From positions 62,001 to 126,000 of the forward strand of contig JAILLP010000020.1 of assembly GCA_024693065.1 (NCBI GenBank): 64,000 nucleotides of DNA, read 5' to 3'. The DNA is from Paludibacteraceae bacterium (GTDB taxonomy: Bacteria > Bacteroidota > Bacteroidia > Bacteroidales > Paludibacteraceae). Of the stretch, positions 2,017 to 18,383 are shown piece by piece. The translations under genes and the position numbers were made by a program. Each line of letters begins with the position of its first letter. Within the stretch, counting starts at the first letter, position 1. Under the pieces are notes generated by a model. That model worked only from the letters and a program-made list of their open reading frames with translations. It made no database searches and was not told where the DNA came from.

Positions 2017-2051
2017 GTGCATATTTGTCGCGAAATTTGCGACGTTATATC
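2004..2051 (+). repeat. 48-base direct repeat, left copy (flanks DUF1016 gene)
   Basis: This segment begins in the terminator stem and ends GACGTTATATC. An imperfect copy lies at 3306-3352, on the other side of the DUF1016 gene. Both contain a small hairpin (GTCGC / GCGAC around an A/T-rich loop). No transposase is present, so the repeat marks a cassette boundary or a dispersed palindromic element. Confidence 0.6.
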
Positions 2052-2257
2052 ACGGGGCACGTACCCACATGTTCGTGCGTCACACCACCCACAATTTCAA
2101 CACAACAAAAAATCAACATTCGTGGAATCAAAATATTATTTGTAATTTTACATTCGATAAACGTCTATCTTTTTTTTGCGGCATCATTATGTCCAATAAG
2201 GTGGTCAATGAGAGGAATAATCAATATTTTAATTTGCATCCCTAAAAATAAGTACGT

Positions 2258-3292
2258 ATGAAAAAAGAAAATCCGTCTTTGCAAATGCAGCAACTGGATA
2301 CACTATATAGTGATATCCGCCAGATCATAGAGTCATCACGCAATAATGCGGTGCGTAGTGTTGATTTCTGTCGTGTACAGATGTATTGGCACCTAGGACA
2401 ACGAATATTCGAGGAAGAGCAGCAGGGGAAGGAACGCGCTGACTATGGAGCATACCTTATCAAAACTCTTGCCAATCGACTTGAACCTGAGTTCGGAAGC
2501 GGATTTGGGGTGAGACAATTGGAGCGTGCAAGACAATTCTATAGGATATATCCAATTGCGACCACACTGCGGTCGCAATTGAACTGGAGCCAGTATCGTA
2601 TGTTAATTCAGATTCCTGACCCCGACAAAAGAGAGTACTACGAATTGGAATCTGTCAACAATGCATGGACTGCTCGCGAAACCGAGCGACAAATCAATTC
2701 AATGCTCTATGAGCGCCTGTTGATGAGCAACGACAAAGAGAGTGTACTTGCTGTGGCTCGTAAGGAACGCATTCCCGAAAGCCCCGCAGAAATCATTAAA
2801 GATCCAATGGTGCTTGAATTCCTTGGGCTTCATAGGGAGAGCTGCTATTACGAGAAAGATTTGGAGTCCACAATCATTACTCACCTGACAGAATTTCTAC
2901 TTGAAATGGGTAAAGGTTTCTCTTTCGTAGCACGTCAGAAGCGTATTCTGATCGAGGACGATGAGTTTTTTGCAGATTTAGTTTTCTTTAACCGCTTGTT
3001 GCGTTGTCATGTTGTCATTGAGATTAAAGCGGGTAAACTGACACATCAAGACTTAGGACAACTTCAGATGTACGTTAACTATTATGACCGCAACGTAAAG
3101 CTGCCCGATGAAAACCGAACCATCGGAATACTTCTTTGTACTGAGAAAAACGACACGGTTGTTCAGATGACCTTACCAGAAGACAGTCAAAACATTTTAG
3201 CCAGCGAGTATAAATTGTATCTTCCATCGTCTGAGCAACTTATTGAAGAAATTAACGAAGTGAAGAAGATGGCGCAAAAGATAACAAAATAG
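2258..3292 (+). CDS. DUF1016 (YhcG-like) PD-(D/E)XK nuclease family protein
   Basis: A 344-residue protein with the DUF1016 N-terminal domain (about residues 15-165, with HLGQRIFEEEQQG, GFGVRQLERARQFYRIYP and LNWSQYRMLIQI) and a C-terminal PD-(D/E)XK-type domain. The likely active-site residues are the aspartate of FADLVFFNR and the E-x-K of VVIEIKAGK, around residues 240-265. The family is widespread in accessory DNA; a DNA-cleaving role is inferred from the fold and has not been shown for this protein. The gene stands alone between two copies of a 48-base repeat, as a self-contained cassette would. A palindrome lies within the coding region at 2553-2581. Two further DUF1016 genes occur at 17-20 kb. 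Confidence 0.88.
   Translation: MKKENPSLQMQQLDTLYSDIRQIIESSRNNAVRSVDFCRVQMYWHLGQRIFEEEQQGKERADYGAYLIKTLANRLEPEFGSGFGVRQLERARQFYRIYPIATTLRSQLNWSQYRMLIQIPDPDKREYYELESVNNAWTARETERQINSMLYERLLMSNDKESVLAVARKERIPESPAEIIKDPMVLEFLGLHRESCYYEKDLESTIITHLTEFLLEMGKGFSFVARQKRILIEDDEFFADLVFFNRLLRCHVVIEIKAGKLTHQDLGQLQMYVNYYDRNVKLPDENRTIGILLCTEKNDTVVQMTLPEDSQNILASEYKLYLPSSEQLIEEINEVKKMAQKITK
2553..2581. repeat. palindrome inside DUF1016 gene 1
   Basis: Perfect 11-bp arms (CAATTGCGACC / GGTCGCAATTG) around a 7-base loop. It encodes the IATTLRSQL stretch just before the conserved WSQYRMLI motif. The other two DUF1016 genes carry different palindromes at the matching place. Confidence 0.85.
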
Positions 3293-3305
3293 AAATGAAT
3301 ATTTT

Positions 3306-3352
3306 GCGTCGTTTTTAATGTTCATTTGTCGCAAAATGTGCGACGTTATATC
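3306..3352 (+). repeat. 48-base direct repeat, right copy
   Basis: Imperfect copy of 2004-2051 (GCGTCGTTTTT, then a GTCGC/GCGAC hairpin, then GACGTTATATCG). It continues into GTAGAGACGCA, a sequence that also forms the arm of the palindrome at 19696-19727. The rest of 3293-3629 is A/T rich; a TACTTTTG at 3432-3439 may be the -7 box for the operon that follows, which would give a leader of about 190 bases. Confidence 0.55.
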
Positions 3353-3629
3353 GTAGAGACGCAGCCCCCCTCAAAAAATGCACAAACAGATTTTTTCTAA
3401 ACAGGCACGAAAAATTTAGAAGAAAAATAAATACTTTTGTAAATGCTGTGGTATCTTTTGACTTTTTTTAAATGAGAGAAAAAGTGCCTCAGTACAAATG
3501 GGGAAACGTGAGGGGAAAGTGAATTAATAACGCAAGATGATGAGTTCAGAGTCGGAGGAGAGTGCATAGCGAAAACATACACCTCACAGATCTTTTTTAA
3601 TTTGTCGGATAAATTTAGTTGTCATAATA

Positions 3630-4679
3630 ATGGTTACACGTATTGAATTTGAGAATTATCGCATTTTCAAGCAGAAACAACAGTTTGATATCAAACCAAT
3701 CACCATTGTTTTTGGTAAAAACAATTCAGGTAAAACGGCATTGTTGAAATTACCTTCTTTGGTGGAGAATTTGTTCAAGGCATTTCAAACAGGAGGAGTC
3801 GTGTCCCCTAAAAACAATGGGGTCCGTTTGTTCCATGAATATCTTGACCTGATATATGGTAGAGCTACAAATGAAGTGAAACTGTCAGTATCGTTTGATG
3901 ATGGGCAAATGGAAACTATTGGTTTCCATGTAGATATAAACAAAATGGTGCTTGACTCAATTAAACCTAGCAACCACACGATGAATAGAGTTGATTATAT
4001 TGGTTCAATTCGTTTGACAGAGCCAGATTTGGATGTGAGAATATCAAATGATGATATTGTTTTGTCGGGAATTGATGGGGCCAACATGTATCAAGTATTA
4101 TTGAAAGATTCTATATCTGACACCCCGACGGTATTATCAGCAGTAGCGCAATGGTATCGTGACACATTTGATGGTTGGTATGTAGATGTAGATAAATCAA
4201 TTCAGCCAGTGTATAATATTAGAATGTGTCATGACAATGGCTTAAAGATTCCCATAAATGATTGTGGCACGGGTATTATACAATCATTGCCGATTGTTAC
4301 GAGGGCTTGTACACGGTGTCAAGAACCAACGTTAATAGTACTTGAGGAACCTGAAACACATTTGAATCCATCCGCTCATGCTGATCTTTGTCAGTTGATT
4401 TCCAAATCTGTAGGAGAGGATAAAAACAAAAGATACATAATAGAAACACATTCGCAGACATTTATTCTACGTTTGCAATACTTGCTAGCGGAAGGAACAC
4501 TTGATGTAGATGATGTTGCCATTTATTTTGTTCATTTCGATAAGGGAATTGATAGTAGCATATTGCAGAAAGTGGATGTGAAGAGAGATGGGAGTATTCC
4601 CAATTGGCCAAAAGGCATGTTTACGGAGGTCCTTGAAGAAGCTTGGGCTATTAATAGAATCCGCAATAATAAGAAATGA
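3630..4679 (+). CDS. AAA/SMC-like ATPase (OLD/DUF3696-type), first gene of candidate defence operon
   Basis: A 349-residue ABC/SMC-type ATPase. It has an N-terminal beta start (MVTRIEFENYRIF), Walker A GKNNSGKT at 29-36, a signature-like DCGTGIIQSLPIV at 211-223, Walker B LIVLEEPETHLNP at 235-247 and the switch histidine in ETHSQ at 272-276. This is the layout of OLD-family, AbiEii-neighbour and PARIS AriA ATPases, but the nuclease domain is not fused; a separate TOPRIM protein is encoded four bases downstream. By analogy the ATPase senses a phage trigger and controls the TOPRIM effector. That role is inferred. The closest match might be DUF3696 or AAA_15; I cannot separate them without a search. 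Confidence 0.85.
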   Translation: MVTRIEFENYRIFKQKQQFDIKPITIVFGKNNSGKTALLKLPSLVENLFKAFQTGGVVSPKNNGVRLFHEYLDLIYGRATNEVKLSVSFDDGQMETIGFHVDINKMVLDSIKPSNHTMNRVDYIGSIRLTEPDLDVRISNDDIVLSGIDGANMYQVLLKDSISDTPTVLSAVAQWYRDTFDGWYVDVDKSIQPVYNIRMCHDNGLKIPINDCGTGIIQSLPIVTRACTRCQEPTLIVLEEPETHLNPSAHADLCQLISKSVGEDKNKRYIIETHSQTFILRLQYLLAEGTLDVDDVAIYFVHFDKGIDSSILQKVDVKRDGSIPNWPKGMFTEVLEEAWAINRIRNNKK

Positions 4680-4683
4680 CATT

Positions 4684-5745
4684 ATGAAAGTGACTGTAGA
4701 CAGGAGCATTTTTGATCAATACGGCACTGATTGTGTTCCACACGATTGCTTCCGAAATTTCTTATTAAATATGGGCAATAATCAGAATTATATGTTGAAC
4801 ATAGATCCTGCCATAGAAATGGAATATGTTTCGTCAAGACTTGACTATATCGACAATGCAATTCTTGGGGTGATTCTAAATCGAAGTATTAATCTACCAG
4901 TTGAGTCGCATAATAGTGATTGCGTTATGGTTGTTGGAGGAGAGGTATATACAGACCAAAAACATTTCGCACCAACCGAAATAAACGAATATCTCAATAC
5001 GAGTGCTACGATTGTTGTAGAAAATGGGAAGAATGATGGCTATTTTGTTCGTGCCATCATGAAACATTTTGCACCATCTGTCGAATTCGAAGAACAATTA
5101 TCCAATAATAACGTCGTCATTGAGGCCGCTGGGGGATCTGGGGCAAGAAGTAGAATAAATTATTTTTTGGATATACACCACAATAAGCCTAAGTATTTGC
5201 GTCATTTGGTTATTGTTGACGGAGACAAACGTTTTCCTGAAGATAACACATATGGGAGTTTTAAAACGCAACAAAAAAATAGAGAATATTTTCAATCCAA
5301 TGCTGTGTTTTATCATATTTTGGAGAAACGAGCAATGGAGAATTATATGCCTGATGAAGTTTATGATTCTCATCGTGATGAGTTTGGCGACTCCTGGGTA
5401 AATGCCTATTTAAAATTAACAGAGATACAGAAGGATTATTATTACATTGCTAAAGGGTTCAGGAAAGATGTCCCGGGAAACATGCAAAATGATGCGAGTT
5501 TGAATACCGATAGGACTCGGCTTCTACCTGCAGCAATTCAAGATTTATTTTCTACTGTAAGTGATCTAGATTATCAAGTTCTTTTGGATAAGCCAAATGG
5601 AAAAAATTTTAAAGATGTTTTCCCTGAACATTATAATGATTCACAAGTTACCAAGGATTCGTTATTACGTCGGTCTCCCCGTAAACCTACATCAGGCAAA
5701 TCGGAATTAGAAGAGATAGCAGAAAAAATAAAGCAATTATTGTAA
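4684..5745 (+). CDS. TOPRIM-type (DUF4435-like) effector protein, second gene of candidate defence operon
   Basis: I take the ATG at 4684, four bases after the ATPase stop; the open frame begins earlier, inside the ATPase gene. The 353-residue product has a TOPRIM-like core: a glutamate in TIVVENGKND (E113), an aspartate pair in IVDGDKR (D179, D181), and LEKRAMENYMP (214-223), a motif resembling the R-x-x-ENY stretch of DUF4435 and OLD proteins. About 110 residues precede the core and about 130 follow it. In PARIS, the DUF4435 partner AriB is the nuclease released by its ATPase; this protein sits in the same position relative to its ATPase. The family assignment is from motifs only. The stop is followed by the DUF262 start after a single base. 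Confidence 0.7.
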   Translation: MKVTVDRSIFDQYGTDCVPHDCFRNFLLNMGNNQNYMLNIDPAIEMEYVSSRLDYIDNAILGVILNRSINLPVESHNSDCVMVVGGEVYTDQKHFAPTEINEYLNTSATIVVENGKNDGYFVRAIMKHFAPSVEFEEQLSNNNVVIEAAGGSGARSRINYFLDIHHNKPKYLRHLVIVDGDKRFPEDNTYGSFKTQQKNREYFQSNAVFYHILEKRAMENYMPDEVYDSHRDEFGDSWVNAYLKLTEIQKDYYYIAKGFRKDVPGNMQNDASLNTDRTRLLPAAIQDLFSTVSDLDYQVLLDKPNGKNFKDVFPEHYNDSQVTKDSLLRRSPRKPTSGKSELEEIAEKIKQLL

Positions 5746-5746
5746 G

Positions 5747-7321
5747 ATGAATATGGAAAAGAAATTAAGTATAGAACCAGGGTCGAAAAACATTTCATCC
5801 CTAATAGAAAGTATTCGACAAGGTAATATTCAGGTGCCTCCATTCCAACGTGATTTCGTTTGGGATAGAAAAAACATAATTCGACTTTTTGATAGTATCC
5901 AAAAAGGTTATCCCATAGGGACTCTCTTCTTATGGAGACCTGCGTTTCAATCTGATTGGGATGGAAAATCTCGGTTAGGATCATATACCATTCCTAAAGC
6001 ATCTTCTCAAAACTTCTATGTACTTGATGGTTACCAAAGACTCTCTACTCTTTTTGGATGTTTGGTCAATCATGAACAAACAAAACTGGAATGTGACAAA
6101 ACCATGTGGGAGCATCTCTTTAATCTGTATTATGATGCTAAGGATGATACGTTCACATTTCTTCCCTCTAAAAGCAAACCGAAATATTGGCACTTCCCAA
6201 TGACAGTTTTTTTGGTTGCAAGTGATTTTCGCAAGTATAGTCGAGAGCATCTTGAAAAAGAATGTCAAAACGAGCAAGAAATAACCGAACTATTAAATAA
6301 AGCTGATAAAGTATCCAGTATCCTATTGGATTATCGCATAGGAACAATAGAAATTAATAATGCAAACATTAATCAGGCTGCTGATATTTTTTCCCGCATA
6401 AATTCCGAAGGCACAAAGGTGTCTATTGACTGGATGGTTCACGCTCTATCATACGACGGCAAATTTAACTTGTCCCAAGTGACTGATGATTTGTTGGACT
6501 CATTGCAGGATTACCATTTTGAAACATTGAGCAGGGATGCCATCTTTCGTTGTTTTCAAAGTTCTTTTGGCAAAATATATTTCGACCAAGACAAAATTGA
6601 GAGCTTAGCCGTCGACCCCAAATTTGGCGATATAATAAAAGACAAGTCTGTTCCTGCCATTCGAAAGGCAGTGAAGTTTTTATATGAAGACCTACATGTG
6701 CTTGACAAAACACTACTTCCCTATAATATTCAGATTGTTTTTATTATGGAGTTTTTCCGTCAATTGAGTAATCCTACAGAAGAGCAATTGGGATGGCTCA
6801 AATCATGGTTTTGGCGTACTACATATAGCAATTTTTTCACAAATGGATCATTGTCCGCTCAACGCCAAGAATACAGCTCATTTAAGACCTATTTGAAAAC
6901 AGGGGAATATCAACCCTCTGACATTCTGAAACAAAATCTGTCATTGGAATATTCATTCCCTGAGAAAATCAATTTACGTAGTGTGCGTTCGTGTGCATTA
7001 GTATTATTTGTCATTAATAATTTATTCAAACGTTGTCCTGAGCTGATGTATGATGTCATTTATCGTCAAACAGTTGTTGAGGTGAAGGGTTCTAATCATA
7101 AACACACTTTGTTCACTAACGTAGAACTAAAGGCATATAAAGAATTGTCGGAGAGGCAGTTGGATGTTCTCCCCTCCCGCCGTGAAGAATATGATAAAGA
7201 TTTGGATATTTTAAAAGCTTCTTTTTTTACAGATAACCTCAATCAAGTGGAATCTCGTCGAGAAGAAATGGCTAATGCAGAAAAAACGTTTCTTAGGGAG
7301 ATTGGATTTGAAATAAAGTAG
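5747..7321 (+). CDS. DUF262 (GmrS/ParB-like) domain protein, third gene of candidate defence operon
   Basis: A 524-residue protein with the DUF262 signatures VPPFQRDFVWD (30-40), YVLDGYQRLSTL (91-102, a DGQQR-type motif with Y for the first Q) and FSRINSEGTKVS (about 212-223). DUF262 is the ParB/sulfiredoxin-like fold of the GmrSD and BrxU modification-dependent nucleases, where it binds and hydrolyses nucleotides. No HNH (DUF1524/GmrD) domain is apparent in the C-terminal part, so the nuclease activity of this operon, if any, would come from the TOPRIM protein. The gene follows it directly, which implies one transcript. The TAG stop is followed, in the same frame, by a 99-codon remnant of an S24-like domain. 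Confidence 0.85.
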   Translation: MNMEKKLSIEPGSKNISSLIESIRQGNIQVPPFQRDFVWDRKNIIRLFDSIQKGYPIGTLFLWRPAFQSDWDGKSRLGSYTIPKASSQNFYVLDGYQRLSTLFGCLVNHEQTKLECDKTMWEHLFNLYYDAKDDTFTFLPSKSKPKYWHFPMTVFLVASDFRKYSREHLEKECQNEQEITELLNKADKVSSILLDYRIGTIEINNANINQAADIFSRINSEGTKVSIDWMVHALSYDGKFNLSQVTDDLLDSLQDYHFETLSRDAIFRCFQSSFGKIYFDQDKIESLAVDPKFGDIIKDKSVPAIRKAVKFLYEDLHVLDKTLLPYNIQIVFIMEFFRQLSNPTEEQLGWLKSWFWRTTYSNFFTNGSLSAQRQEYSSFKTYLKTGEYQPSDILKQNLSLEYSFPEKINLRSVRSCALVLFVINNLFKRCPELMYDVIYRQTVVEVKGSNHKHTLFTNVELKAYKELSERQLDVLPSRREEYDKDLDILKASFFTDNLNQVESRREEMANAEKTFLREIGFEIK

Positions 7322-7618
7322 ACTAAATTTGACAGATTAGATTTCTGTGTTTTCCGCGCCAATCCTGCAGGCAGTCGACAAGGGAAAATAGTTCTGGTAC
7401 AGCATCGCAACTATTACGATTCGGACTATACCGGCGCATACTCCATCAAGGAATATAGCAGTGTCAAGAACTATGATGAATTCGGTAATTGGCAACACGA
7501 AAAGATTGAATTGAAGCCTTTAAACAAAGATTATAATCCAATAGTAATCAATGCGGAAGATGCAGAGGATTTCAGGGTAATAGGTGAATTTATTGGCATT
7601 GTTCAAAACCAAATGTAA
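7322..7618 (+). pseudogene. remnant: C-terminal end of an S24/LexA-like peptidase domain
   Basis: Directly after the DUF262 stop, in the same frame, lies an open stretch of 98 sense codons with no start codon of its own. Its translation (DRLDFCVFRANPAGSRQG, IVLVQHRNYYD, AYSIKEYSS and near the end FRVIGEFIGIV) has the look of the S24-like tail that ends some Bacteroidetes helicase/DUF3427 proteins. I read it as what is left of an earlier defence gene at this site after the present operon moved in. Readthrough of the TAG is formally possible but there is no sign that it is used. Confidence 0.65.
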
Positions 7619-7623
7619 AACCT

Positions 7624-7661
7624 ATTCTAACGGAATGCGTAAATACGCGTTTCGTTAGAAT
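7624..7661. repeat. 38-base imperfect palindrome, copy 1
   Basis: ATTCTAACG and CGTTAGAAT close a near-perfect inverted repeat with GCGTAAATACGC at its centre. Related palindromes with the same centre lie at 9177-9212 and 9471-9512, so the DUF4143 gene is bracketed by them. Confidence 0.75.
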
Positions 7662-7702
7662 AAACTCCTCTCTAGTCACTACAATTTGAGGATGGAGGAA
7701 AC

Positions 7703-7789
7703 AAAAGTCGCCCGAAAAAGTGTGCACTAATTGACAAAAGTCGCCCGAAAAAGTGTGAAGACATGATGAAAAGTCGCCCGAAAAAGTGT
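7703..7789 (+). repeat. three-unit array, 33-base period, upstream of DUF4143 gene
   Basis: Three copies of AAAGTCGCCCGAAAAAGTGT preceded by an A (7703-7723, 7736-7756, 7769-7789), each starting exactly 33 bases after the last, with 12-base unlike spacers. The last unit runs into GTAAATTTGC, which resembles a Bacteroidetes -7 box, 30 bases before the ATPase start. The flanking 40 bases upstream are also repeated before the second array (CACTACAATTTGAGGATGGA, then GGAAAC). Confidence 0.9.
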
Positions 7790-7819
7790 AAATTTGCATC
7801 GTAACAAATTTGCATATAC

Positions 7820-9142
7820 ATGTATAACAGAAAGATAGACAGTTTTTTTGCACAATGGAAAAATTCATCAGAAAGGAATCCATTGGTTATCAAAGGGTGT
7901 CGTCAATGTGGGAAGACGAGCTCGGTACTGTCGTTTGCTCGTAAAAATTATAAGAATGTAGTCTATATTGATTTCCATGAGCAGAAGGATTTGTGTGAGT
8001 TGTTCAAGGGGTCTTTACAGGTTGATTATTTGACCGTTGCGATTTCAGCCGCTGTTCCGACTGCTCGTTTTGAAGCGAAAAAGACATGTCTGGTGTTGGA
8101 CGAGATACAAGACTGTCCGCAAGCTCGAGCTGCACTGAAATTTTTCAAGTTGGATGGCAGATACGATGTTATATGTACCGGCTCATTGCTTGGTGTGAGC
8201 GGCTATCGGTCATCCGATTCGGAAACGTCAATCCCGGTCGGGTTTGAGACGATTGTGGATATGTATCCGATGGATTTTGAGGAGTGGCTTTGGGCAAATG
8301 GTTTGCAGGAATCCGTTTTCGACTTGTTGAAAAAGTTGCTGGCAGAGGAGACACCTGTACCGCAGGCGATCCACAATCGAATGAGGCAGTTGCTGTTGGA
8401 GTATATTGTGGTCGGAGGAATGCCGGCGGCTGTTCATGCTTTCCTAAACACACGGGACATCAATCAAGTCATAGCAGTTCAGCGGAGTATTGTGGATGAG
8501 TACAAGTCCGACATGGTGAAGTATGCCAACCCTGCGGATAAAAACAGAATTCGTGAATGTTTCGAATCGATACCTCGTCAGTTGAGCAAGGATAACAAAA
8601 AGTTCTCGTTCTCCACGGTTCGGAAGGGAGGACGAAGCAAAGAATATATTGGTTGTCTGCAATGGATTGAGGATGCAGGAATCATTCAGCGTTGCTATAA
8701 TTTGACGACAACAGAGTTGCCGTTGAGTGGCAATGCGATACATGACTCGTTCAAGGTGTATATGACCGACACAGGCTTGTTTGTCAGCATGTTAGATACG
8801 GGGACACAATCAGACATTTTACAGGGGAATCTGCTCAGTTACAAGGGAGCCATCTACGAGAATATAATGGCTGACTTTCTTTGCAAAATGGGACGCAAAT
8901 TATATTATTACCAAAAAACCGATGGAATAGAAATCGATTTTGTGATTCGGTACAAAGGAAAGTGTGTGCCTGTGGAGTGCAAGGCTCGGACAGGCAATGC
9001 AAAGTCCATGTCCACACTACTGAAACACCCCGAGAAGTATCATGTGTATGATGCCCTAAAATTAGGTGATTACAATATCGGAAGGGATGGCGCATTGTTG
9101 ACCTTGCCGTTCTATATGGGATTCCTTTTGACGGAGTTGTAG
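7820..9142 (+). CDS. ATP-binding protein with AAA_14 and DUF4143 domains
   Basis: A 440-residue protein. Walker A is GCRQCGKT (26-33), Walker B LVLDEIQDC (91-99), then a CTGSLLG sensor-like stretch, the DUF4143 region (about 200-400) and near the C terminus EIDFVIRYKGKCVPVECKA, which has the spacing of a PD-(D/E)XK-like core. The family is common in Bacteroidetes and archaeal accessory DNA and has no settled function. What is odd here is the frame: nearly identical blocks (palindrome, about 40 shared bases, three 33-base repeats) lie on both sides, at 7624-7789 and 9177-9340. The gene and its flanks therefore look like one mobile or duplicated unit. Confidence 0.88.
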   Translation: MYNRKIDSFFAQWKNSSERNPLVIKGCRQCGKTSSVLSFARKNYKNVVYIDFHEQKDLCELFKGSLQVDYLTVAISAAVPTARFEAKKTCLVLDEIQDCPQARAALKFFKLDGRYDVICTGSLLGVSGYRSSDSETSIPVGFETIVDMYPMDFEEWLWANGLQESVFDLLKKLLAEETPVPQAIHNRMRQLLLEYIVVGGMPAAVHAFLNTRDINQVIAVQRSIVDEYKSDMVKYANPADKNRIRECFESIPRQLSKDNKKFSFSTVRKGGRSKEYIGCLQWIEDAGIIQRCYNLTTTELPLSGNAIHDSFKVYMTDTGLFVSMLDTGTQSDILQGNLLSYKGAIYENIMADFLCKMGRKLYYYQKTDGIEIDFVIRYKGKCVPVECKARTGNAKSMSTLLKHPEKYHVYDALKLGDYNIGRDGALLTLPFYMGFLLTEL

Positions 9143-9176
9143 CTGTTTATTGTGTAGATTCCGCCATTTCCAAACT

Positions 9177-9212
9177 TTCGAATATTTTGCGTAAATACGC
9201 ATTCCGTTCGAA
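9177..9212. repeat. imperfect palindrome, copy 2
   Basis: TTCGAA at both ends and GCGTAAATACGC at the centre; counterpart of 7624-7661 on the other side of the DUF4143 gene. Confidence 0.7.
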
Positions 9213-9253
9213 TGTCCCTCTCTAAGCCACTACAATTTAAGGATGGAGGAAAC

Positions 9254-9340
9254 AAAAGTCGCCCGAAAAAGTGTGCACTTATTGATAAAAGTCACCCGAA
9301 AAAGTGTGAAGACATAACGAAAAGTCGCCCGAAAAAGTGT
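9254..9340 (+). repeat. three-unit array, 33-base period, downstream of DUF4143 gene
   Basis: Units at 9254-9274, 9287-9307 and 9320-9340, again spaced exactly 33 bases. The middle unit has one change (CACCCG for CGCCCG). The spacers resemble those of the first array, so the whole block was duplicated as a unit. Confidence 0.9.
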
Positions 9341-9417
9341 ATAAAACTTATTTAATAGACTGAAAATCAGTATATTTAAAACAACAAAACACTACGACTC
9401 TTAAAGGAGAGGATCAC

Positions 9418-9456
9418 ATGTCTGCCAAAAGCAAAGGAAAAACCACATCTAAATAA
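9418..9456 (+). other. 12-codon reading frame in the 9143-9843 gap
   Basis: ATG with a rare good Shine-Dalgarno (AAAGGAGAGG, about 6 bases upstream) opens a frame coding MSAKSKGKTTSK. It may be the surviving start of a lost gene or a leader peptide. Little else can be said. Confidence 0.3.
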
Positions 9457-9470
9457 TTAACCGCCTAACT

Positions 9471-9512
9471 ACTTTCGAATGTTTTGCGTAAATACGCGTT
9501 TCGTTCAAAAGT
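9471..9512. repeat. imperfect palindrome, copy 3
   Basis: ACTTTCGAA and TTCAAAAGT around the same GCGTAAATACGC centre as copies 1 and 2; it adjoins the MNT-HEPN debris. Confidence 0.65.
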
Positions 9513-9725
9513 GGATTTGGTGGGGTAGAAATTACATTGCCTGAGTACTCGATGATATCCATCAACCGTCCCTTATCCCTCGCTTTTTCTCTCATAAATC
9601 AGTATCTTATCACGATTAGCTGTTTCCGCGGCATATGGACGTAGTGAGCCTTCCTCCACCAAATCGACATCACGTCCTAATAATTCCCGCAAGTCCATCA
9701 ACATGCCTCCATGAGTGAAGAGCGT
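9500..9725 (-). pseudogene. remnant of an MNT-HEPN toxin-antitoxin pair
   Basis: On the minus strand, 9725 to 9573 encodes the C-terminal end of an MNT nucleotidyltransferase (LRELLGRDVDLVEEG, then AAETANRDKILIYER). An overlapping ATG at 9595 opens the typical start of a HEPN protein (MREKARDKGRLMDIIEYSG), which is lost after about 20 codons near the palindrome at 9471-9512. Both ends are missing. An intact MNT gene with a similar C terminus lies at 14336. Confidence 0.7.
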
Positions 9726-9843
9726 GAAAGATAGCTAAACAGTAAATTTCCACACAGATTCCACGCAAAAAAAGCGTCCGCCCCACACTCCATTCGAAAA
9801 ATTAAATGTAACTTCGGGGTACAATAAATTCGCTAACATACTT

Positions 9844-11037
9844 ATGGAATACGATTTCGACACAATAATCGACCGAACGGGCTCCCACGACGTGAAGCAT
9901 GAACTTCTGGGAAGACGCTTCGGACGGGAGGACCTGCTGCCTCTGTGGGTGGCCGACATGGATTTCGCCACGCCTCCCTTCATCATCGACGCGATAAGGA
10001 AACGACTGGATCACCCTATCCTTGGCTATACCCTCCCACCCGACCAATGGGAGACATCGATCCGGAAATGGATCGCAGACCATCATCAATGGACCGTCAA
10101 AAGCCATTGGCTCACCTACGTGCCTGGCGTCGTGAAAGGCATCGGAATCGTCGTCAACGCAATGCTCAAGCCGGAGGAGCGCGTCATCATCCAACCACCC
10201 GTGTACCACCCGTTCCGCATCACGCCGGAGGGAAACCGCCACGAGGTCGTCAACAACCCGCTCAAGGAAATCCGTGGGAACGACGGCCGCCTGAAGGGAT
10301 ACGAGATGGACTTCGAAGGGTTGGAGCGGTTGGCGGCGGACCCGCTGAACCGTCTGCTGATACTCTGCAACCCACACAATCCCGGCGGCATCGTCTGGAG
10401 CAGGGAGACGCTCGAACGTGTCGCAAAGATCTGCGCCGCCAACAACGTCCTCGTCCTCAGCGACGAGATACACTGCGACCTGGCGCTGTTCGGACATAAG
10501 CACATCCCGTTCGCCTCGGTATCGGCGGAGGCGGAGAGCTGCAGCATCACCTTGGGCGCACCCTCCAAGACCTTCAACATGGCTGGCGTCGTCAGCTCAT
10601 ACATCATCGTGCCCAACGAGGAGATCCGTCACCCGCTGTTCAGGTGGATGGCCTCCAACGAGTTCAACGAGGCGCATATCTTCGCCCCGATAGCCACCAT
10701 AGCCGCCTTCGAGGAGGGCGAGGAGTGGAGACAACAGATGCTCGCTTACATCGAGAAGAACATCACCTTCGTGGAGGATTTCCTTTCGGACAATATCCCA
10801 GCCATCAAGCCCCTGCGTCCGCAAGCCTCCTTCTTGGTGTGGCTCGACTGCCGAGGGTTGGGACTCACGCACGCCGGTCTGATAGACCTGTTCGTCAACC
10901 AAGCACATCTGGCGCTCAACGATGGCGCCATGTTCGGTCCGGGCGGGGAGGGCTTCATGCGCCTCAACGTGGCCTCCCCTAAAAGCGTGTTGGAGAAGGC
11001 TTTACAGGGACTAAAAAAAGCGACAAATAAGGGGTGA
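9844..11037 (+). CDS. patB: PatB/MalY-type PLP-dependent C-S lyase (cystathionine beta-lyase) / aminotransferase
   Basis: A 397-residue fold-type I PLP enzyme. It shows LPLWVADMDFATPP near the N terminus, NPHNPGG (cofactor binding), LSDEIHCDL, and GAPSKTFNMAG, whose lysine is the expected Schiff-base residue. This set is typical of PatB/MalY C-S lyases, which split cystathionine or cysteine S-conjugates into thiol, pyruvate and ammonia, rather than of ordinary aminotransferases. It is cytoplasmic. Cysteine synthase follows 79 bases later on the same strand, so the two may act together in cysteine and homocysteine metabolism. The substrate is not fixed by the sequence. Codon use is G/C-rich, unlike the accessory genes just upstream. 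Confidence 0.85.
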   Translation: MEYDFDTIIDRTGSHDVKHELLGRRFGREDLLPLWVADMDFATPPFIIDAIRKRLDHPILGYTLPPDQWETSIRKWIADHHQWTVKSHWLTYVPGVVKGIGIVVNAMLKPEERVIIQPPVYHPFRITPEGNRHEVVNNPLKEIRGNDGRLKGYEMDFEGLERLAADPLNRLLILCNPHNPGGIVWSRETLERVAKICAANNVLVLSDEIHCDLALFGHKHIPFASVSAEAESCSITLGAPSKTFNMAGVVSSYIIVPNEEIRHPLFRWMASNEFNEAHIFAPIATIAAFEEGEEWRQQMLAYIEKNITFVEDFLSDNIPAIKPLRPQASFLVWLDCRGLGLTHAGLIDLFVNQAHLALNDGAMFGPGGEGFMRLNVASPKSVLEKALQGLKKATNKG

Positions 11038-11116
11038 AGGATTGAATGAGCCATCAAATATCCCTGCATTTGTAAGAAAAGAAGAGTGTGAAACAGTTAC
11101 ATAAATCATAAAACAT

Positions 11117-12055
11117 ATGGCTAAGATTATCGAAAGCGCATTGGAGTTAATCGGCAAGACGCCACTGATGAGACTCAACAATTATGCGAAGAAAACAGGC
11201 GTGACAAACGCGACACTTTTAGCGAAGTTGGAATACCTCAACCCTGCAGGTTCCGTGAAGGACCGTGTAGCCCTCGCCATGATCGAGGACGCGGAGAAGA
11301 AGGGGCTCCTGAAACCAGGCGCCACCATCATCGAGCCGACCTCCGGCAACACGGGCATCGGTCTCGCCGCCGTAGCCGCCGCAAAGGGTTACAAAGCGAT
11401 CTTGACCTTGCCGGACACCATGAGTGTAGAACGCCGCAACCTGCTGAAGGCCTACGGTGCGGAGATCGTACTGACCGAAGGTGCGAAGGGTATGAAGGGC
11501 GCCATCGCCAAGGCGGAGGAGCTCAACAAGGAGATCCAAGGCTCCATCATCCTTGGGCAGTTCGTCAACCCAGCCAACCCGAAGGCGCACAAAGAGACCA
11601 CGGGTCCTGAGATATGGGACCAGACAGACGGCAAAGTGGACATCTTCGTGGCGGGTGTGGGAACAGGCGGTACCTTATCCGGCGTAGGAGAATTTCTGAA
11701 GTCCAAGAACCCGAACGTGAAGGTGGTAGCGGTGGAGCCCGCCACTTCACCTGTCCTGTCGAAAGGCACGGCGGGAGCACACAAGATCCAAGGCATCGGC
11801 GCAGGTTTCGTCCCTGACACACTGAACACGAAGATCTACGACGAGGTGATCGCCATAGAGAACGAGGACGCATTCACGGAAGGCAAGAACTTCGCGGTCA
11901 GCGAGGGCATCCTGGTGGGCATCTCCTCCGGCGCAGCCCTGAAAGCGGCTTCGATACTGGCGGCCCGTCCCGAGAACAAAGGGAAGAACATCGTGGTCCT
12001 GCTTCCGGATTCAGGAGACAGATACCTATCAACGCCTTTGTTCTCAAATAATTAA
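11117..12055 (+). CDS. cysK: cysteine synthase A (O-acetylserine sulfhydrylase)
   Basis: A 312-residue PLP enzyme of the CysK family, of usual length. NPAGSVKDR carries the cofactor lysine (K48), TSGNTG (75-80) is the substrate-binding loop, and GTGGTLSG binds the PLP phosphate. It makes cysteine from O-acetylserine and sulfide in the cytoplasm. It lies behind the patB-like gene with its own TGCATTTG-like box in the gap near 11070, so it may be transcribed both with patB and alone. A hairpin follows at 12140-12170. Confidence 0.93.
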
Positions 12056-12139
12056 AAAGGGGAAAAGACGGCCAACTATTGTTGAATTACGCCGTCTAAT
12101 TTGAGTCATAATGGCAAGGGAATCAACATTCCCAATTAG

Positions 12140-12170
12140 GGAAAGGCTTCATGTGAACTGAAGTCTTTCC
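12140..12170 (+). terminator. hairpin after cysK (possible terminator)
   Basis: GGAAAGGCTTCA and TGAAGTCTTTCC form a 12-bp stem (one G-T pair) with a 7-base loop. The T tract after it is poor (CCCCATTTAT), so termination is uncertain. A second inverted pair, GACGGC / GCCGTC, lies between it and the cysK stop. Confidence 0.5.
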
Positions 12171-12298
12171 CCATTTATAGGCACACCCATCCATATACAA
12201 CACGAAAGAGGAATCGCCCACCAATTACTTTTTCACAAGGCAAACACCTTATCTCCAAAAAACAATCTTTCGAACACCATTTTTTCATTTTTTTATCG

Positions 12299-12306
12299 TA
12301 TCTTTG
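12299..12306 (+). promoter_or_regulatory. -7 box of pckG promoter
   Basis: TATCTTTG followed by CACC fits the Bacteroidetes TAnnTTTG box; the -33 region is a T-rich tract. It predicts a leader of about 65 bases. Confidence 0.65.
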
Positions 12307-12378
12307 CACCGCTTTTTCCGGAAACGGTTCGTTTAGCCGTAAAGTAGTGACAATGTTCATTTTATATATAATAGTTTT

Positions 12379-14223
12379 ATGATTAACACTAAAAATGCAA
12401 AATTGAACGCATGGGTTAAGATGTGGGCAGATATCTGTCAACCAGAGAATGTTTACCTATGCGACGGCTCCGATGAGGAGTTCACTCGTTTGATGGACGA
12501 GTGTGTAGCAAACGGTTTGGCTAAGAAGTTGAACGAGAAGAAACGTCCAAACAGCTACTATTTCCAATCAGATCCAAGTGACGTAGCTCGTGTTGAGAAC
12601 CGTACTTTCATCTGCTCTAAGAAGCAAGAAGATGCAGGTCCAACTAACAACTGGATGGATCCTGTTGAAATGAAACATATTTTGATCAACAAATACAACG
12701 GCTGTATGAAGGGTCGTACGATGTACGTTATCCCATTCTCAATGGGTCCATTGGGTGGTCCTATCAGCCAGTTGGGTGTTGAGCTTACCGACTCCGCATA
12801 CGTGGTTGGTTCCATGAAGATCATGACTCGTATGGGTAAGAAAGCTTTGGAATTGATCGAGAAGAGCGGCGAATTCATCCCTTGTATCCACTCTGTAGGT
12901 AAGCCATTGCCAGCAGGTTTGAAGGATGCTAAGTGGCCTTGCGCTCCAATCGATGAGAAATACATCGTACAATTCCCTGAGGAGCGCGAAATCTGGACCT
13001 ATGGTTCTGGTTACGGAGGAAACGCTTTGTTGGGTAAGAAGTGCTTCGCTTTGCGTATCGCTTCTAAGATGGCTCAAGAAGATGGATGGTTGGCAGAGCA
13101 CATGTTGATCCTTCGTCTTACTAAGAAGGCTACTAACGAGACTAAGTATGTTTGCGCCGCATTCCCATCAGCATGTGGTAAGACTAACTTGGCCATGTTG
13201 ATCCCTACTATCCCAGGATGGGACGTTAAGACTGTAGGTGACGATATCGCTTGGATGAAGTTCGACGAGGAGGGTAACCTTCGCGCTATCAACCCAGAGG
13301 CTGGTTTCTTCGGTGTAGCTCCTTATACTTCAGCTAAGACTAACAAGAACGCTCTTGATTCTTGCTGCAAGAACACTATCTTCACGAACGTAGGATACAC
13401 TCCAGACGGTGATATTTGGTGGGAAGGAATTGGTTACGATTGTCCTAAGGGCACAATCGACTGGAAGGGTAACATCGTAAACGACCCTGCTTCTCGCGAC
13501 GCTGACGAGAACCCAGTGGCTCACAAGAACTCTCGTTTCGCTGCTCCTGCAGCTAACTGTCCTGCTATCGACCCAGATTGGGAATCTCCTAAGGGTGTAA
13601 AAGTTGACGCTATCCTCTTCGGTGGTCGTCGTCCTAACACTGTGCCATTGGTACACGAGGCTGAGGATTGGGCACACGGTGTATTCATGGGATCTATCGT
13701 AGGTTCTGAGGTTACCGCTGCTGCTATTGGTTTGAAGGCTGGTGTTCGTCGTGACCCATTCGCTATGTTGCCATTCTGTGGTTACAACATGGGTGACTAC
13801 TTCCAGCACTGGATCGACATGGAGAAGTTGCCACAAGCTAAGGGTGGTAAGAACTTGCCTAAGATCTTCTTCGTTAACTGGTTCCGTCGTGACAAGAGCA
13901 ACAAGGCACTTCCAGGTGGATTCTTGTGGCCAGGTTACGGTGACAACAGCCGTGTATTGGCTTACATCTTCGACCGTTGCGACGGTAAGGGTGAGACAGT
14001 TGACACTCCAATCGGAAAGGTACCTGCTAAGGGCGCTATCAACATCGAGGGTCTCGACTCTTGCTGGAATGAGAAGACGATGGAGCAAGTATTGGCAGTT
14101 AACGTTGACGAGTGGAAAGAGGAAGTTGGACGTATCGAAGAGCACTTCGCTAAGTTCGGCAAGCACCTTCCTAAGGAACTCGTTGCACGTCTTGACATTC
14201 TCAAGAAACGTTTGGGTATGTAA
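12379..14223 (+). CDS. pckG: phosphoenolpyruvate carboxykinase (GTP)
   Basis: A 614-residue protein of the GTP-using PEPCK family, of normal length. It shows the kinase loop CAAFPSACGKTNLAML (P-loop form typical of the GTP enzyme), the metal-site stretch DDIAWMKFDEEG, and FVNWFRRDKSNKALPGGFLWPGYGDNSR near the C terminus. It interconverts oxaloacetate and PEP and in fermenting gut bacteria usually fixes CO2 on the way to succinate. Codon choice differs sharply from its neighbours: T-ending Val, Gly, Arg and Ala codons and TTG for Leu dominate, as expected of a very highly expressed gene. Many Bacteroidetes have the ATP-type enzyme instead, so the GTP type is a useful taxonomic hint. Confidence 0.95.
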   Translation: MINTKNAKLNAWVKMWADICQPENVYLCDGSDEEFTRLMDECVANGLAKKLNEKKRPNSYYFQSDPSDVARVENRTFICSKKQEDAGPTNNWMDPVEMKHILINKYNGCMKGRTMYVIPFSMGPLGGPISQLGVELTDSAYVVGSMKIMTRMGKKALELIEKSGEFIPCIHSVGKPLPAGLKDAKWPCAPIDEKYIVQFPEEREIWTYGSGYGGNALLGKKCFALRIASKMAQEDGWLAEHMLILRLTKKATNETKYVCAAFPSACGKTNLAMLIPTIPGWDVKTVGDDIAWMKFDEEGNLRAINPEAGFFGVAPYTSAKTNKNALDSCCKNTIFTNVGYTPDGDIWWEGIGYDCPKGTIDWKGNIVNDPASRDADENPVAHKNSRFAAPAANCPAIDPDWESPKGVKVDAILFGGRRPNTVPLVHEAEDWAHGVFMGSIVGSEVTAAAIGLKAGVRRDPFAMLPFCGYNMGDYFQHWIDMEKLPQAKGGKNLPKIFFVNWFRRDKSNKALPGGFLWPGYGDNSRVLAYIFDRCDGKGETVDTPIGKVPAKGAINIEGLDSCWNEKTMEQVLAVNVDEWKEEVGRIEEHFAKFGKHLPKELVARLDILKKRLGM

Positions 14224-15234: not shown

Positions 15235-16245
15235 ATGGGTTCATACTGGAAAGATAAGGAGAATTACGAACGTAAGAAACGCGAAGATGAAACAAACCAG
15301 GCAATATTAAAATTTATACTAGCCGCAGTTGGAGGTATACTAACTTTTATTCTCTCGAAATTATTGGCACCGATAGTTTCTAAATATCCTGTTGCCTCAG
15401 TTGTTGTTTTCTTAGCGATAGGTATTGGTTGTTATTTTTACTTCGCCAATGATAAAGAATCTTCAAAAGAAACTAAAGTTGAAAACTTTGAAGCTTTTGC
15501 AAATAAATTTTCTCAAGATGAAAACTTCTGTAAACAACGCTTAAGCAAGATTGTCGAGGCAGAAGGATACAAAAAAAAGTCTTACAAGGCGACTGAACTT
15601 TCAGCCAAGAAAATCATGGCTTCAATCATTAGCAATGAGCCACAAAACTATACAGGAGATGATGTTGAGAATGAATTGTGTTATGGCAAATTCTCAAATG
15701 TTTCGGAGGATAAATATGCATATCAATTAATTAAGATGTCTGACAACTCCCTTATTAAATTGTATGAGTTCACACTTGAAAAAACAGAATGGTATCTGAC
15801 GAAAATACAGAAAGGTGGCAATGCAATAGAGACAATCTCAGACAATGATTCTGCAACAAACATTCCGAACAGTTCTAACGACAGCGAAACAGACTACATT
15901 CATGTTGAAGGCTTCAACATTTACATTCCCAAGGATTTTGTTGAACACCCGAAAATGATTAACACGTATGTTTTACCTGATATTAGTGGAGGTGATTCCA
16001 TGTACTTTAGTTATGAAGTTCTATCCGACCCTAAAGGTCCATGGGATTTGAACCCAGATGCCTGCGAAGCTGATTATGTAGGTAGTGAAAATGAATTACA
16101 CGTTTCTAGGAAAGGAGAGGAAAATGAGTATTCTTCTATTTGGCGCGAATACAAAAAAAACGGCAAATGGTGTGTATTGTCAGTTGATTATGTTGACGAT
16201 GATAAATATAGAGACATCTGGGAATTTTTGGATAAATCCAATTAA
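15235..16245 (+). CDS. membrane protein of unknown function
   Basis: Start taken at the ATG at 15235 (a TTG lies two codons earlier). The 336-residue product has a charged N terminus, two membrane segments (about residues 26-48 and 53-70, ILKFILAAVGGILTFIL and VASVVVFLAIGIGCYFYF) and a long hydrophilic remainder with no cysteine pattern or known motif. A possible TATATTTG box lies at 15193. Base composition is A/T-rich, like the other accessory genes here. The gene ends 13 bases before the start of the UDG-like gene, so they are probably cotranscribed. I do not recognise the family. Confidence 0.7.
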   Translation: MGSYWKDKENYERKKREDETNQAILKFILAAVGGILTFILSKLLAPIVSKYPVASVVVFLAIGIGCYFYFANDKESSKETKVENFEAFANKFSQDENFCKQRLSKIVEAEGYKKKSYKATELSAKKIMASIISNEPQNYTGDDVENELCYGKFSNVSEDKYAYQLIKMSDNSLIKLYEFTLEKTEWYLTKIQKGGNAIETISDNDSATNIPNSSNDSETDYIHVEGFNIYIPKDFVEHPKMINTYVLPDISGGDSMYFSYEVLSDPKGPWDLNPDACEADYVGSENELHVSRKGEENEYSSIWREYKKNGKWCVLSVDYVDDDKYRDIWEFLDKSN

Positions 16246-16258
16246 TCAAAAATGTTGT

Positions 16259-17044
16259 ATGAAAGGAGAACTAAATAAAATATTTGAAGAGTGGAAAGAG
16301 AGAATGAAGAGGAACGGTGATGGCGATTTTTTCACTAAAGATGGCATCTTGCGACAAAACAACAAATCAGACGAACAAATTGAACAAGAATGGTTTTCTT
16401 CTTCAAAACGAATTTTGTTTTTGTTAAAAGACCAACACCAAGACGGAGAGCCCAAATGGGACGAAGATATTCGCGATTGGCTGAAAGACACGGAAACCGA
16501 CAATGGGAAAGCATTAGAGCAGAAGAGGGAAAATCGTAATCTAGAAATACTTTTCACCCAAAGATTAGCCTATCTTCTGTGGGGACTATCAAAGGCAGAT
16601 AAAAATTGTGATTGGTGGTACGACGAAATAACCCAACATTTCGAAGAAGTAAAAACCTTTTTCATCACACAACCATTTGCATTAGTTGAATGTAAAAAAA
16701 TGCCGGGAGGAGGATCTCTTGATGATAATATTTTAAAAAGGCATCTTAGTAGCTATGGCGATCTCCTTAAAAAAGAGCTTGATTTACTAAAACCGAACAT
16801 CATAATATGTACAAGCGAACACATTTATGATTTTGTCATTTCTTCATGTTCAGAAGATTCCATACAAAAATTAGAAGGGCACAATAGCATCCGAATCATT
16901 CGGAACAACAACCATACTGAAACTCTGATTTTCTGTTCGTACCATCCAAGTGTTTTTGGTAAAAAAAAGGACTTTTTCTATGAAGGAGTAATGTATCATT
17001 ATAGAGCCTTCTTGAAAAGCAAATTCAATGATATAGACGCATGA
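16259..17044 (+). CDS. uracil-DNA-glycosylase-superfamily-like protein
   Basis: Start taken at the ATG at 16259, which gives 261 residues; the open frame extends upstream inside the preceding gene. RILFLLKDQHQDG resembles the strand and loop of motif A of UDG-fold proteins, KKMPGGGS is followed by a long helix, LLKPNIIICTS looks like the central strand, and CSYHPSVFG fits the HPS motif near the C terminus. The catalytic residues of true UDGs are not obvious, so the activity is open. It may form a two-gene unit with the membrane protein upstream, and a terminator follows. Confidence 0.5.
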   Translation: MKGELNKIFEEWKERMKRNGDGDFFTKDGILRQNNKSDEQIEQEWFSSSKRILFLLKDQHQDGEPKWDEDIRDWLKDTETDNGKALEQKRENRNLEILFTQRLAYLLWGLSKADKNCDWWYDEITQHFEEVKTFFITQPFALVECKKMPGGGSLDDNILKRHLSSYGDLLKKELDLLKPNIIICTSEHIYDFVISSCSEDSIQKLEGHNSIRIIRNNNHTETLIFCSYHPSVFGKKKDFFYEGVMYHYRAFLKSKFNDIDA

Positions 17045-17240: not shown

Positions 17241-18383
17241 ATGAAAAAAGAGCATCCTGTCATACCGCTTTCACAGGCGGTGGAGACAATCAAAACAGCT
17301 ATTCTGCAAAGTCAGGCACGTGCGGCCAAAATGGTTAGTGGATCACAATTGTCGTTGTATTTTGGTGTGGGACTATATGTTTCAGCCAATTCTCGAGAAG
17401 GCACATGGGGAACTGGGGCCGTCCATACCATCAGTGAACAATTGCACAGAGAATTGCCTGGGTTACGAGGCTTTTCCGTTCAAAATATCCGAAATATGCG
17501 TCAATTCGCAGAGTTTTGGCAACCGTTTCTAATTCGCTCGCCAATGGCGAGCGAATTAGAAACGGAAGATTTGCGGAACAAGATCGAGTATGATAGTTTC
17601 GCCTTAGCAAAATGGGCGCCAACAACGAGCGAAATTAACCGCGACGAGTTTCTTGGCATCAGTTTCTCTCACCACATAGAGATTCTCCACAAAACGAAGA
17701 ACATTCAAGAGGTGCTGAACTGCATTCACGAGGCAGTTGTCCACCAATGGGACAAATACACTTTGAGGGACGTACTAAAAGCTGGCATTCCACAACCGGA
17801 ACATATTGCACCCAACAATTTTGCCCAAACAATACCGACAGCGAAAGCAAGCATGAAAGCCATCCGCATGTTCAAGGACGAATACTTGCTGGATTATATT
17901 AACGTAGAAGAAATAGACGCAGAAGATGAAGATGTAGATGAAGCGGTCGTTGAGCAGCACATTATACAGAACATCAAAAGGTTTATCATGACGTTGGGAC
18001 GAGACTTCACGTTCGTAGGCAACCAATATCATCTGGAAATTTATGGAGAGGAGATGAAAAGCGACTTGTTATTCTTTAATCGTGAACTAAATGCCCTTGT
18101 AGCCATTGAATTAAAGAAAGGGAAATTTAAACCTGCATATCTAGGTCAATTGTATGCATACATGCAAGTGCTGGATGACAAGGTAAAAAAGCCCCATGAA
18201 AATCCTTGCATTGGCATCGTGCTTTGCAGAAGTGCCAACCAAGCTTATGTGGAATATGCAGTACGAGACTACAACAAGCCTATGGGAGTGTCAACATACA
18301 AAACACTTTCTGATATGCCCACAAATATGCGTGAGATTCTGCCAGACGTCAAAGAAATGATGAAGTTGCTGGATGAAGAATGA
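17241..18383 (+). CDS. DUF1016 (YhcG-like) nuclease family protein, gene 2
   Basis: A 380-residue protein with the DUF1016 N-terminal domain (YFGVGLYVSAN, LPGLRGFSVQNIRNMRQFAEFW, FSHHIEILHKT) and a C-terminal PD-(D/E)XK-type domain (DLLFFNRELNALVAIELKKGKF, about residues 274-295). It shares most of its domain order with the next gene, and 57 bases near its 5' end (17253-17309) are identical to 18477-18533. A 43-base palindrome (17523-17565) lies in the coding region between the N-terminal helices and the SHH-x-E motif. The pair may be a tandem duplication that has since diverged; function is inferred only from the fold. Confidence 0.87.
   Translation: MKKEHPVIPLSQAVETIKTAILQSQARAAKMVSGSQLSLYFGVGLYVSANSREGTWGTGAVHTISEQLHRELPGLRGFSVQNIRNMRQFAEFWQPFLIRSPMASELETEDLRNKIEYDSFALAKWAPTTSEINRDEFLGISFSHHIEILHKTKNIQEVLNCIHEAVVHQWDKYTLRDVLKAGIPQPEHIAPNNFAQTIPTAKASMKAIRMFKDEYLLDYINVEEIDAEDEDVDEAVVEQHIIQNIKRFIMTLGRDFTFVGNQYHLEIYGEEMKSDLLFFNRELNALVAIELKKGKFKPAYLGQLYAYMQVLDDKVKKPHENPCIGIVLCRSANQAYVEYAVRDYNKPMGVSTYKTLSDMPTNMREILPDVKEMMKLLDEE
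17523..17565. repeat. palindrome inside DUF1016 gene 2
   Basis: Perfect 20-bp arms (CCGTTTCTAATTCGCTCGCC and its complement) around AAT. It is in frame and encodes PFLIRSPMASELETE. Confidence 0.92.

Follow-up and report, generated by a model that had tools for sequence, protein, structure and literature searches.

A predicted ATPase, TOPRIM and DUF262 operon of the PDC-M55 kind as a candidate three-component anti-phage system

What might an operon do that joins an ATPase, a TOPRIM-like protein and a DUF262 protein? The question is raised by a locus in a Paludibacteraceae bacterium (GCA_024693065.1, contig JAILLP010000020.1, positions 62,001 to 126,000), the whole stretch of 64,000 nucleotides (nt) being referred to here as the window. 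An original prediction, made from the sequence alone, had described three A/T-rich genes lying 4 and 1 bases apart as a candidate anti-phage system, and the coordinates, gaps and composition of that layout are all borne out. Gene 1 (3630..4679, + strand, 349 amino acids) encodes an OLD/NsnB-type ABC ATPase, gene 2 (4684..5745, + strand, 353 amino acids) a predicted stand-alone TOPRIM nuclease with E113, D179, D181 and a KRxxENY motif at 215-221, and gene 3 (5747..7321, + strand, 524 amino acids) a DUF262/ParB-like nucleoside triphosphate (NTP)-binding protein without HNH. None of the three open reading frames (ORFs) has an internal stop, the intergenic gaps are CATT (4 nt) and G (1 nt), and the G+C content of genes 1, 2 and 3 is 0.372, 0.361 and 0.364 (36-37%) against 0.540 at 1-2000, 0.516 at 9844-14223 and 0.494 at 30000-64000. 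The listed ORF of gene 2 opens at 4588, with 4684 being the start that agrees with its relatives. Promoter-like sites number 21 against 17.3 (standard deviation (sd) 4.5), which is close to chance, and terminator-like sites 6 against 2.7 (sd 1.6), with none at the operon end.

All three proteins match, in order and from adjacent genes on one strand, the models of a phage defence candidate (PDC) in PADLOC-DB 2.0.0, gene 1 matching PDC-M55A (1.9e-64, 216 bits), gene 2 PDC-M55B (1.6e-18) and gene 3 PDC-M55C (9.9e-82, 273 bits), and the trio is therefore assigned to PDC-M55. No difference from PDC-M55 was seen, the likeness being judged from the three protein models and their order. As such the window locus is a further member of a catalogued candidate and not a first discovery; the earlier claim that no described system joins the three families was too strong, although the named system that the trio matches is so far a catalogue candidate only. 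A literature search, with most subscription papers and bioRxiv outside its coverage, found no paper on PDC-M55 by name. In the part available of one paper, most PDCs are said to await validation and a 2024 preprint is cited as their source, M55 not being named there (PMC12988326). New here are a likely identity for component B, a family-wide lack of HNH in component C and the link of the ATPase with Menshen rather than PARIS.

The OLD-type ATPase called in the original prediction is supported by Walker A, Walker B and switch histidine motifs (GKNNSGKT at 29, LEEPETHLNP at 238 and ETHSQT at 272) and by Pfam matches to AAA_15 (1.7e-19), AAA_21 (4.8e-11) and, in the tail, DUF3696 (5e-06), the last of which Pfam also finds in the single NsnB searched with it, that of Menshen locus L084. 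Among the PADLOC runners-up to PDC-M55A, NsnB of Menshen (PDLC03878) matched at 2.8e-39 and 133.9 bits with residues 1-334 aligned on 1-335 of 345, while HEC-03B (83 bits) and AriA of PARIS (8.4e-21, 73.2 bits) were weaker, placing the ATPase nearer NsnB than AriA. The gene 1 profile compared with the PDB matched OLD (6p74) at 3.1e-8 and AriA at 7.1e-4. Truncation of gene 1 was ruled out because the copies in loci L024 and L025 share its length of 349 amino acids.

At E<=1 neither Pfam nor NCBIfam gives a match for gene 2, and PDC-M55B was its sole PADLOC match at that threshold. The residues named in the original prediction (E113, D179, D181 and E219-N220-Y221) are found at the places it gave, and the invariant positions among 21 aligned sequences include E113, D118, G150, G151, D181, K215, R216, E219, N220 and Y221, with D179 kept in at least 90% and replaced by another residue in L037. 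The same E, GG, DxD and R-x-x-EN motifs occur in the middle gene of trios from Prevotella (L048), Myxococcota (L056), Nonomuraea (L087) and Leclercia (L086). An AlphaFold2 model (mean predicted local distance difference test (pLDDT) 86.9, predicted template modelling score (pTM) 0.84) has strands and helices alternating in the order seen in TOPRIM, E113 following immediately on strand 108-112, and D179 and D181 on strand 174-178. The strand order and catalytic residues thus fit the predicted fold, but the best Foldseek match (1.1e-2) falls below significance: the top six rows against the PDB were GajA (five rows, among them the best) and the C-terminal region of OLD (3.4e-2), at E 1.1e-2 to 1.1e-1, with probabilities of at most 0.63 and template modelling scores (TM-scores) of 0.20-0.22 by query length, and were followed by unrelated folds among the best 50 of 640 matches. 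In profile comparison gene 2 scored 0.0018 against OLD-type proteins (probability only 15%) and 0.056 and 0.083 against two DUF4435 sets, none of these being strong, as well as 0.39 against four NsnC proteins, 0.46 against gene 1 and 0.10 against gene 3. On its motifs and modelled topology, gene 2 is most likely a stand-alone TOPRIM nuclease, a reading reached without a significant structural match.

Other identities for gene 2 were considered and dropped. The likeness to DUF4435 suggested in the original prediction holds for the arrangement of motifs, ENY also being present in three of the examined DUF4435 proteins (L091, L093 and L104), but not for the family itself, there being no Pfam DUF4435 match at E<=1 and only the weak profile scores given above. 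Assignment to NsnC was rejected on the profile comparison and the lack of an NsnC match at E<=1. PDC-M55B matches inside a 1303-amino-acid ORF in L022, which from its start we take to be Cas9, and in a 604-amino-acid OLD-like ATPase ORF in L019 were regarded as chance or distant. Outside the trio, ATPase and TOPRIM-like pairs lie at L018 5571-8241, L020 5056-7800 and L021 8003-10747, the latter two being near-copies, with no gene 3 match nearby; their second genes carry the E, GG, DxD and R-x-x-EN motifs, and the pairs are related to gene 1 and, weakly, to gene 2, an unfiltered search with the gene 2 profile giving 3.6e-13 for the second gene of L018 and 0.15 (no match) for that of L020.

The third protein is a DUF262 protein without HNH, as had been predicted: Pfam finds GmrSD_N (DUF262, PF03235) at 3.8e-29 and no HNH or DUF1524 family. 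Its model (pLDDT 82.9) matched BrxU (5.7e-9) and SspE (1.1e-4 to 2.9e-4) in Foldseek with TM-scores of 0.23-0.34 by query length. In the GxxR motif, which corresponds to the P motif of the ParB-CTPase fold in the available part of one account (PMC12704722), G95 and R98 are invariant in 22 aligned sequences; trio members mostly carry DG[FY]QR, other DUF262 proteins mostly DGQQR or DGRQR and four Menshen NsnA proteins DGLQR. An HNH signature was found in none of 28 trio DUF262 proteins as against 21 of 32 others, including 14 of the 15 nearest stand-alone relatives (L049-L064 minus L056). Counted among the 32 are the decayed L041 and a 268-amino-acid piece (L073), and the match in L072 lies near the protein end and may be chance. 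For L057, the one of the nearest 15 without the motif, a similar motif occurs close to the start of another ORF, which lies downstream. In a tree of 60 gene 3 sequences, all 29 trio proteins fall in one set of 31 (support 97/93) together with the HNH-less L041 and L088, while 17 stand-alone proteins, 16 of them with the motif, form another (91/77), and a third set includes six further proteins lacking the motif. The fork joining the trio and stand-alone sets is unresolved and the tree unrooted; its shape would fit a single loss of HNH in the trio lineage and does not prove one. In L088 (4928-7521, Klebsiella pneumoniae plasmid OW969918), the HNH-less DUF262 gene overlaps by one base a putative AbiC-like gene (Pfam PF16872, 4e-16), which may be another partner for a nuclease-less DUF262 protein.

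The trio recurs as a unit, as the original prediction had called for. An unselected contig scan with the gene 3 alignment alone gave 54 loci, and in 23 of the best 25 (L024-L048) genes 1, 2 and 3 stand in the same order; the exceptions are L038, whose contig opens within gene 2, and L041, a shortened gene 3 alone. The remaining 29 loci held one trio, in a Myxococcota metagenome-assembled genome (MAG; L056). Across 393 genomes of the same order, the PDC-M55B model was found in nine, the window's own included, and comparison with the window proteins showed the full trio in four of the other eight, two of these four having a split gene 2. Three loci of the scan (L031, L034 and L042) duplicate contigs of the order-wide search and were counted once. 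Plasmid searches added near-identical trio genes on two conjugative IncFII plasmids of Leclercia, where the trio lies beside a tyrosine integrase, and a further case in Nonomuraea gerenzanensis, such that the hosts are mostly Bacteroidota with a Limnohabitans MAG, Leclercia plasmids, Nonomuraea and the Myxococcota MAG in addition. A Leclercia gene had no blastn match in E. coli genomes, and gene 2 had no match at E<=0.01 in a phage collection.

Thirty loci picked for having the trio (the window, L024-L048 minus L041, L015, L056, L086, L087 and L119) were checked gene by gene, and all three genes were present in 29, the exception being L038, whose contig stops short of gene 1; distant members match the gene profiles only in part. 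Intergenic gaps ran from -26 to +17 nt in 21 measured loci, the genes mostly overlapping or abutting, one 239-nt gap being an effect of ORF calling. Over 19 loci the pairwise protein distances correlate with r of 0.925 for genes 1 and 3, 0.765 for genes 1 and 2 and 0.717 for genes 2 and 3, with none of 5000 permutations as high; since shared host ancestry could raise such values, they show joint inheritance and not contact. Gene 2 is disrupted in three of the 30 picked loci (L015, L031 and L119), being frame-broken in two MAG contigs and interrupted by an IS1 insertion in the third, while genes 1 and 3 show no visible disruption in the 30 apart from contig ends. Disruption confined to gene 2 might be what is expected of a costly effector. 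Gene 2 of L047 had seemed shortened through ORF calling, but its frame runs uninterrupted from about 5967 to the one stop at its end. One genome (G085) holds a Menshen locus (L078) together with the trio of L015, in which gene 2 is split.

Set beside named systems, the trio shares with PARIS an OLD-type ATPase and, as predicted for gene 2, a TOPRIM protein on separate adjacent genes, a plan that the original prediction had called correctly, but gene 2 is not detectably DUF4435, AriB is not among the best 50 of its 640 Foldseek matches and the PDC-M55 operon includes a DUF262 gene. With Menshen (NsnA, NsnB and NsnC) it shares a DUF262 protein and an NsnB-type ATPase accompanied by a third protein, the NsnA model (PDLC03877) matching gene 3 at 6.8e-11 over profile positions 42-200 of 385 only; it differs in that gene 2 has TOPRIM motifs and no NsnC match, and in that four Menshen loci (L078, L083, L084 and L085) have the order DUF262, ATPase, NsnC in place of ATPase, TOPRIM, DUF262. 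A search of the window's genome with one NsnC model came back empty. Three of the four NsnA proteins lack an HNH motif, that of L084 having a DHYVP match. A passage of one review associates an OLD-type TOPRIM domain with a Menshen component (PMC10952713), which is not borne out by the scan of four NsnC proteins and one NsnB (L084), Pfam finding no TOPRIM family in any of them; the idea that the third Menshen gene is a TOPRIM gene was dropped, the four NsnC sequences having no such family or evident motif. With GmrSD, BrxU and SspE the trio shares the DUF262 domain, fold match and GxxR pocket, and differs in lacking an HNH motif in the 28 members scanned. OLD and GajA of Gabija are alike in ATPase family (OLD 6p74, 3.1e-8) and in the weak TOPRIM fold match, whereas in PDC-M55 the ATPase and the predicted TOPRIM protein are two separate ORFs in the window and in 29 checked loci with both genes.

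Taken together these likenesses suggest, at somewhat better than even chances for the mechanism as a whole, that the trio is a three-component anti-phage system of the PDC-M55 kind built like Menshen and PARIS. That it serves defence at all is highly probable, and that a TOPRIM effector is controlled by the ATPase is likely. In PARIS, according to the part of one account available, AriA is the sensor and AriB, once set free as a dimer, cuts tRNA (PMC12409363), and a review passage reports that loss of the DUF262 gene abolishes Menshen protection (PMC10952713); on these grounds the gene 1 ATPase is proposed as a scaffold that would keep the gene 2 TOPRIM protein inactive, with gene 3, its ParB-like NTP pocket kept and no nuclease domain of its own, acting as an NTP-dependent sensor or switch. 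Its cue might be a phage feature such as modified DNA, a phage protein or the nucleotide state. Upon infection the ATPase would release or activate the TOPRIM nuclease, which would cut nucleic acid (DNA or tRNA) and stop phage growth, probably at the cell's cost. More tentatively, and below the likelihood of the mechanism itself, DUF262 switches may be interchangeable sensor modules. In the trio lineage the built-in HNH nuclease would have been lost and a TOPRIM nuclease caged by the ATPase would have taken its place in trans, so that a modification-dependent restriction enzyme complete in itself became a regulated alarm, probably an abortive one, with PDC-M55, Menshen and the AbiC-linked DUF262 pair of the Klebsiella plasmid as three outcomes of effector swap.

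Several points weigh against this mechanism. Foldseek returned 640 matches of gene 2 at E<=10 and none at E<=1e-3, and by sequence gene 2 has no credible solved relative. DUF262 proteins without HNH also exist outside the trio set, and the absence is therefore not peculiar to it. The three broken copies of gene 2 are few and two are MAG contigs, the chance of all three falling in gene 2 by length alone being about 0.02 (gene 2 makes up 29% of the coding length). The literature search found no experiment on any PDC-M55 member. In PADLOC scans of the flanks, which covered 143 of 144 flanking ORFs (a 1794-amino-acid ORF of L031 was left out) with no control set, no listed family occurred in more than three of 65 or more than one of 78 flanking proteins; single members matched models of type III and IIG restriction, DndD/PbeC, MADS, AbiLi, SoFic and PDC-S02, and for want of a control enrichment in defence families is not claimed.

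The rival readings overlap with the favoured one, that of a Menshen variant being a question of filing, and their chances are not to be summed to one. It is possible, if doubtful, that the trio is a Menshen variant proper, in which the sensor and ATPase core is kept and a TOPRIM protein stands in place of NsnC, a view compatible with the mechanism proposed above. The whole-length NsnB match of gene 1 (2.8e-39), the partial NsnA match of gene 3 (6.8e-11) and the DUF3696 tail common to gene 1 and the NsnB of L084 are in keeping with it, but gene 2 shows no NsnC match (0.39 in profile comparison) and the gene order of four Menshen loci is different. A 2025 paper on Menshen domain polymorphism may already cover part of the trio findings. 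The review passage that ties an OLD-type TOPRIM domain to a Menshen component would bring the two systems closer (PMC10952713), contrary to which Pfam finds no TOPRIM in the four NsnC or one NsnB. Alternatively the operon could be a type IV restriction enzyme distributed over three proteins, with DUF262 recognising modified phage DNA, the TOPRIM protein cutting that DNA and the ATPase regulating, such that infection is cured and not aborted. DUF262 being, in the review passage, the NTPase half of GmrSD, BrxU and SspE (PMC10952713), the fold match of gene 3 to BrxU and the absence of HNH in proteins accompanied by a second nuclease gene all agree with this, as do L024 and L025, in which the trio begins 4 nt beyond a type III res gene. 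The reading is nonetheless unlikely, given that gene 1 is of the NsnB/AriA/OLD kind, that PARIS acts by releasing a toxic TOPRIM protein and that two-gene ATPase and TOPRIM-like loci exist with no gene 3 match (L018 and the pair of near-copies L020 and L021).

A guard of the PARIS type, whose ATPase senses a phage anti-restriction protein and whose DUF262 protein, an extra host factor or a bait, frees the TOPRIM nuclease when disturbed, would explain the separate ATPase and TOPRIM genes, the ENY motif shared with three of the examined DUF4435 proteins and the AriA matches of gene 1. It is improbable in view of the lack of a DUF4435 match for gene 2, the closer kinship of the ATPase to NsnB and the distance correlation, which is highest for genes 1 and 3 (0.925) and thus makes DUF262 look like a core partner of the ATPase. 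That the operon is not for defence, being a mobile or housekeeping unit of other use, would accord with the lack of a protection assay in the literature found and of clear enrichment of defence families in the flanks; this is very improbable for a trio that is patchy across phyla, occurs on conjugative plasmids beside an integrase, lies inside a variable island and is made of three domains all known from defence systems. If the favoured reading of an ATPase-controlled TOPRIM nuclease under a DUF262 switch is right, PDC-M55 would join three studied families (GmrSD/BrxU, Menshen and PARIS/OLD) and allow a direct test of an NTP-dependent ParB-like switch driving a nuclease encoded by another gene, and a catalogue entry of several phyla and conjugative plasmids would gain a likely effector in gene 2, with E113, D179 and D181 as residues for point mutants.

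In the window the trio lies in a variable island of 7.7 kb (2046..9777), recognised because a stretch of a same-genus genome (L147) shares both flanks, aligning to 262-2045 (93%) and 9778-12002 (96%), the two matches being separated there by some 3.5 kb of unrelated sequence; the edges are approximate and rest on this one comparison. The only gene 3 profile match in the L147 genome is distant (1.4e-4, 84 positions), leaving it with no trio-type gene 3. Besides the trio the island holds a DUF1016/YhcG gene (2258-3292) and a DUF4143 ATPase gene (7820-9142), both identified by Pfam and both named in the original prediction, and an S24-peptidase C-terminal remnant (about 7333-7618, Pfam 1.1e-6) directly after the trio. 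Elsewhere, the trio adjoins topoisomerase IV genes in two Flavobacterium species, lying in L043 between a parE-like and a parC-like gene and in L047 after a parE-like gene (all by Pfam), which suggests a shared insertion spot.

The DUF1016 gene of the island is flanked by a 41-nt direct repeat (83% alike, 2011-2051 and 3312-3352), the 28-nt core of which has two copies only in the genome at up to three mismatches; the left edge of the island (2045/2046) falls inside the first repeat copy, and the pair may delimit a cassette of one gene. A 117-nt direct repeat (94% alike, 7674-7790 and 9225-9341), holding three copies of a short motif and found in two copies only in the genome, flanks the DUF4143 ATPase gene. 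Further along the window lie a protein at 16085-17044 (scanned from 16169) with a weak match to the uracil-DNA-glycosylase superfamily (4.4e-6), two more DUF1016/YhcG nuclease genes in tandem (17241-18383 and 18504-19676) and, at 29232-29720 on the - strand, a DUF3990 protein that weakly matches an ADP-ribosyltransferase family.

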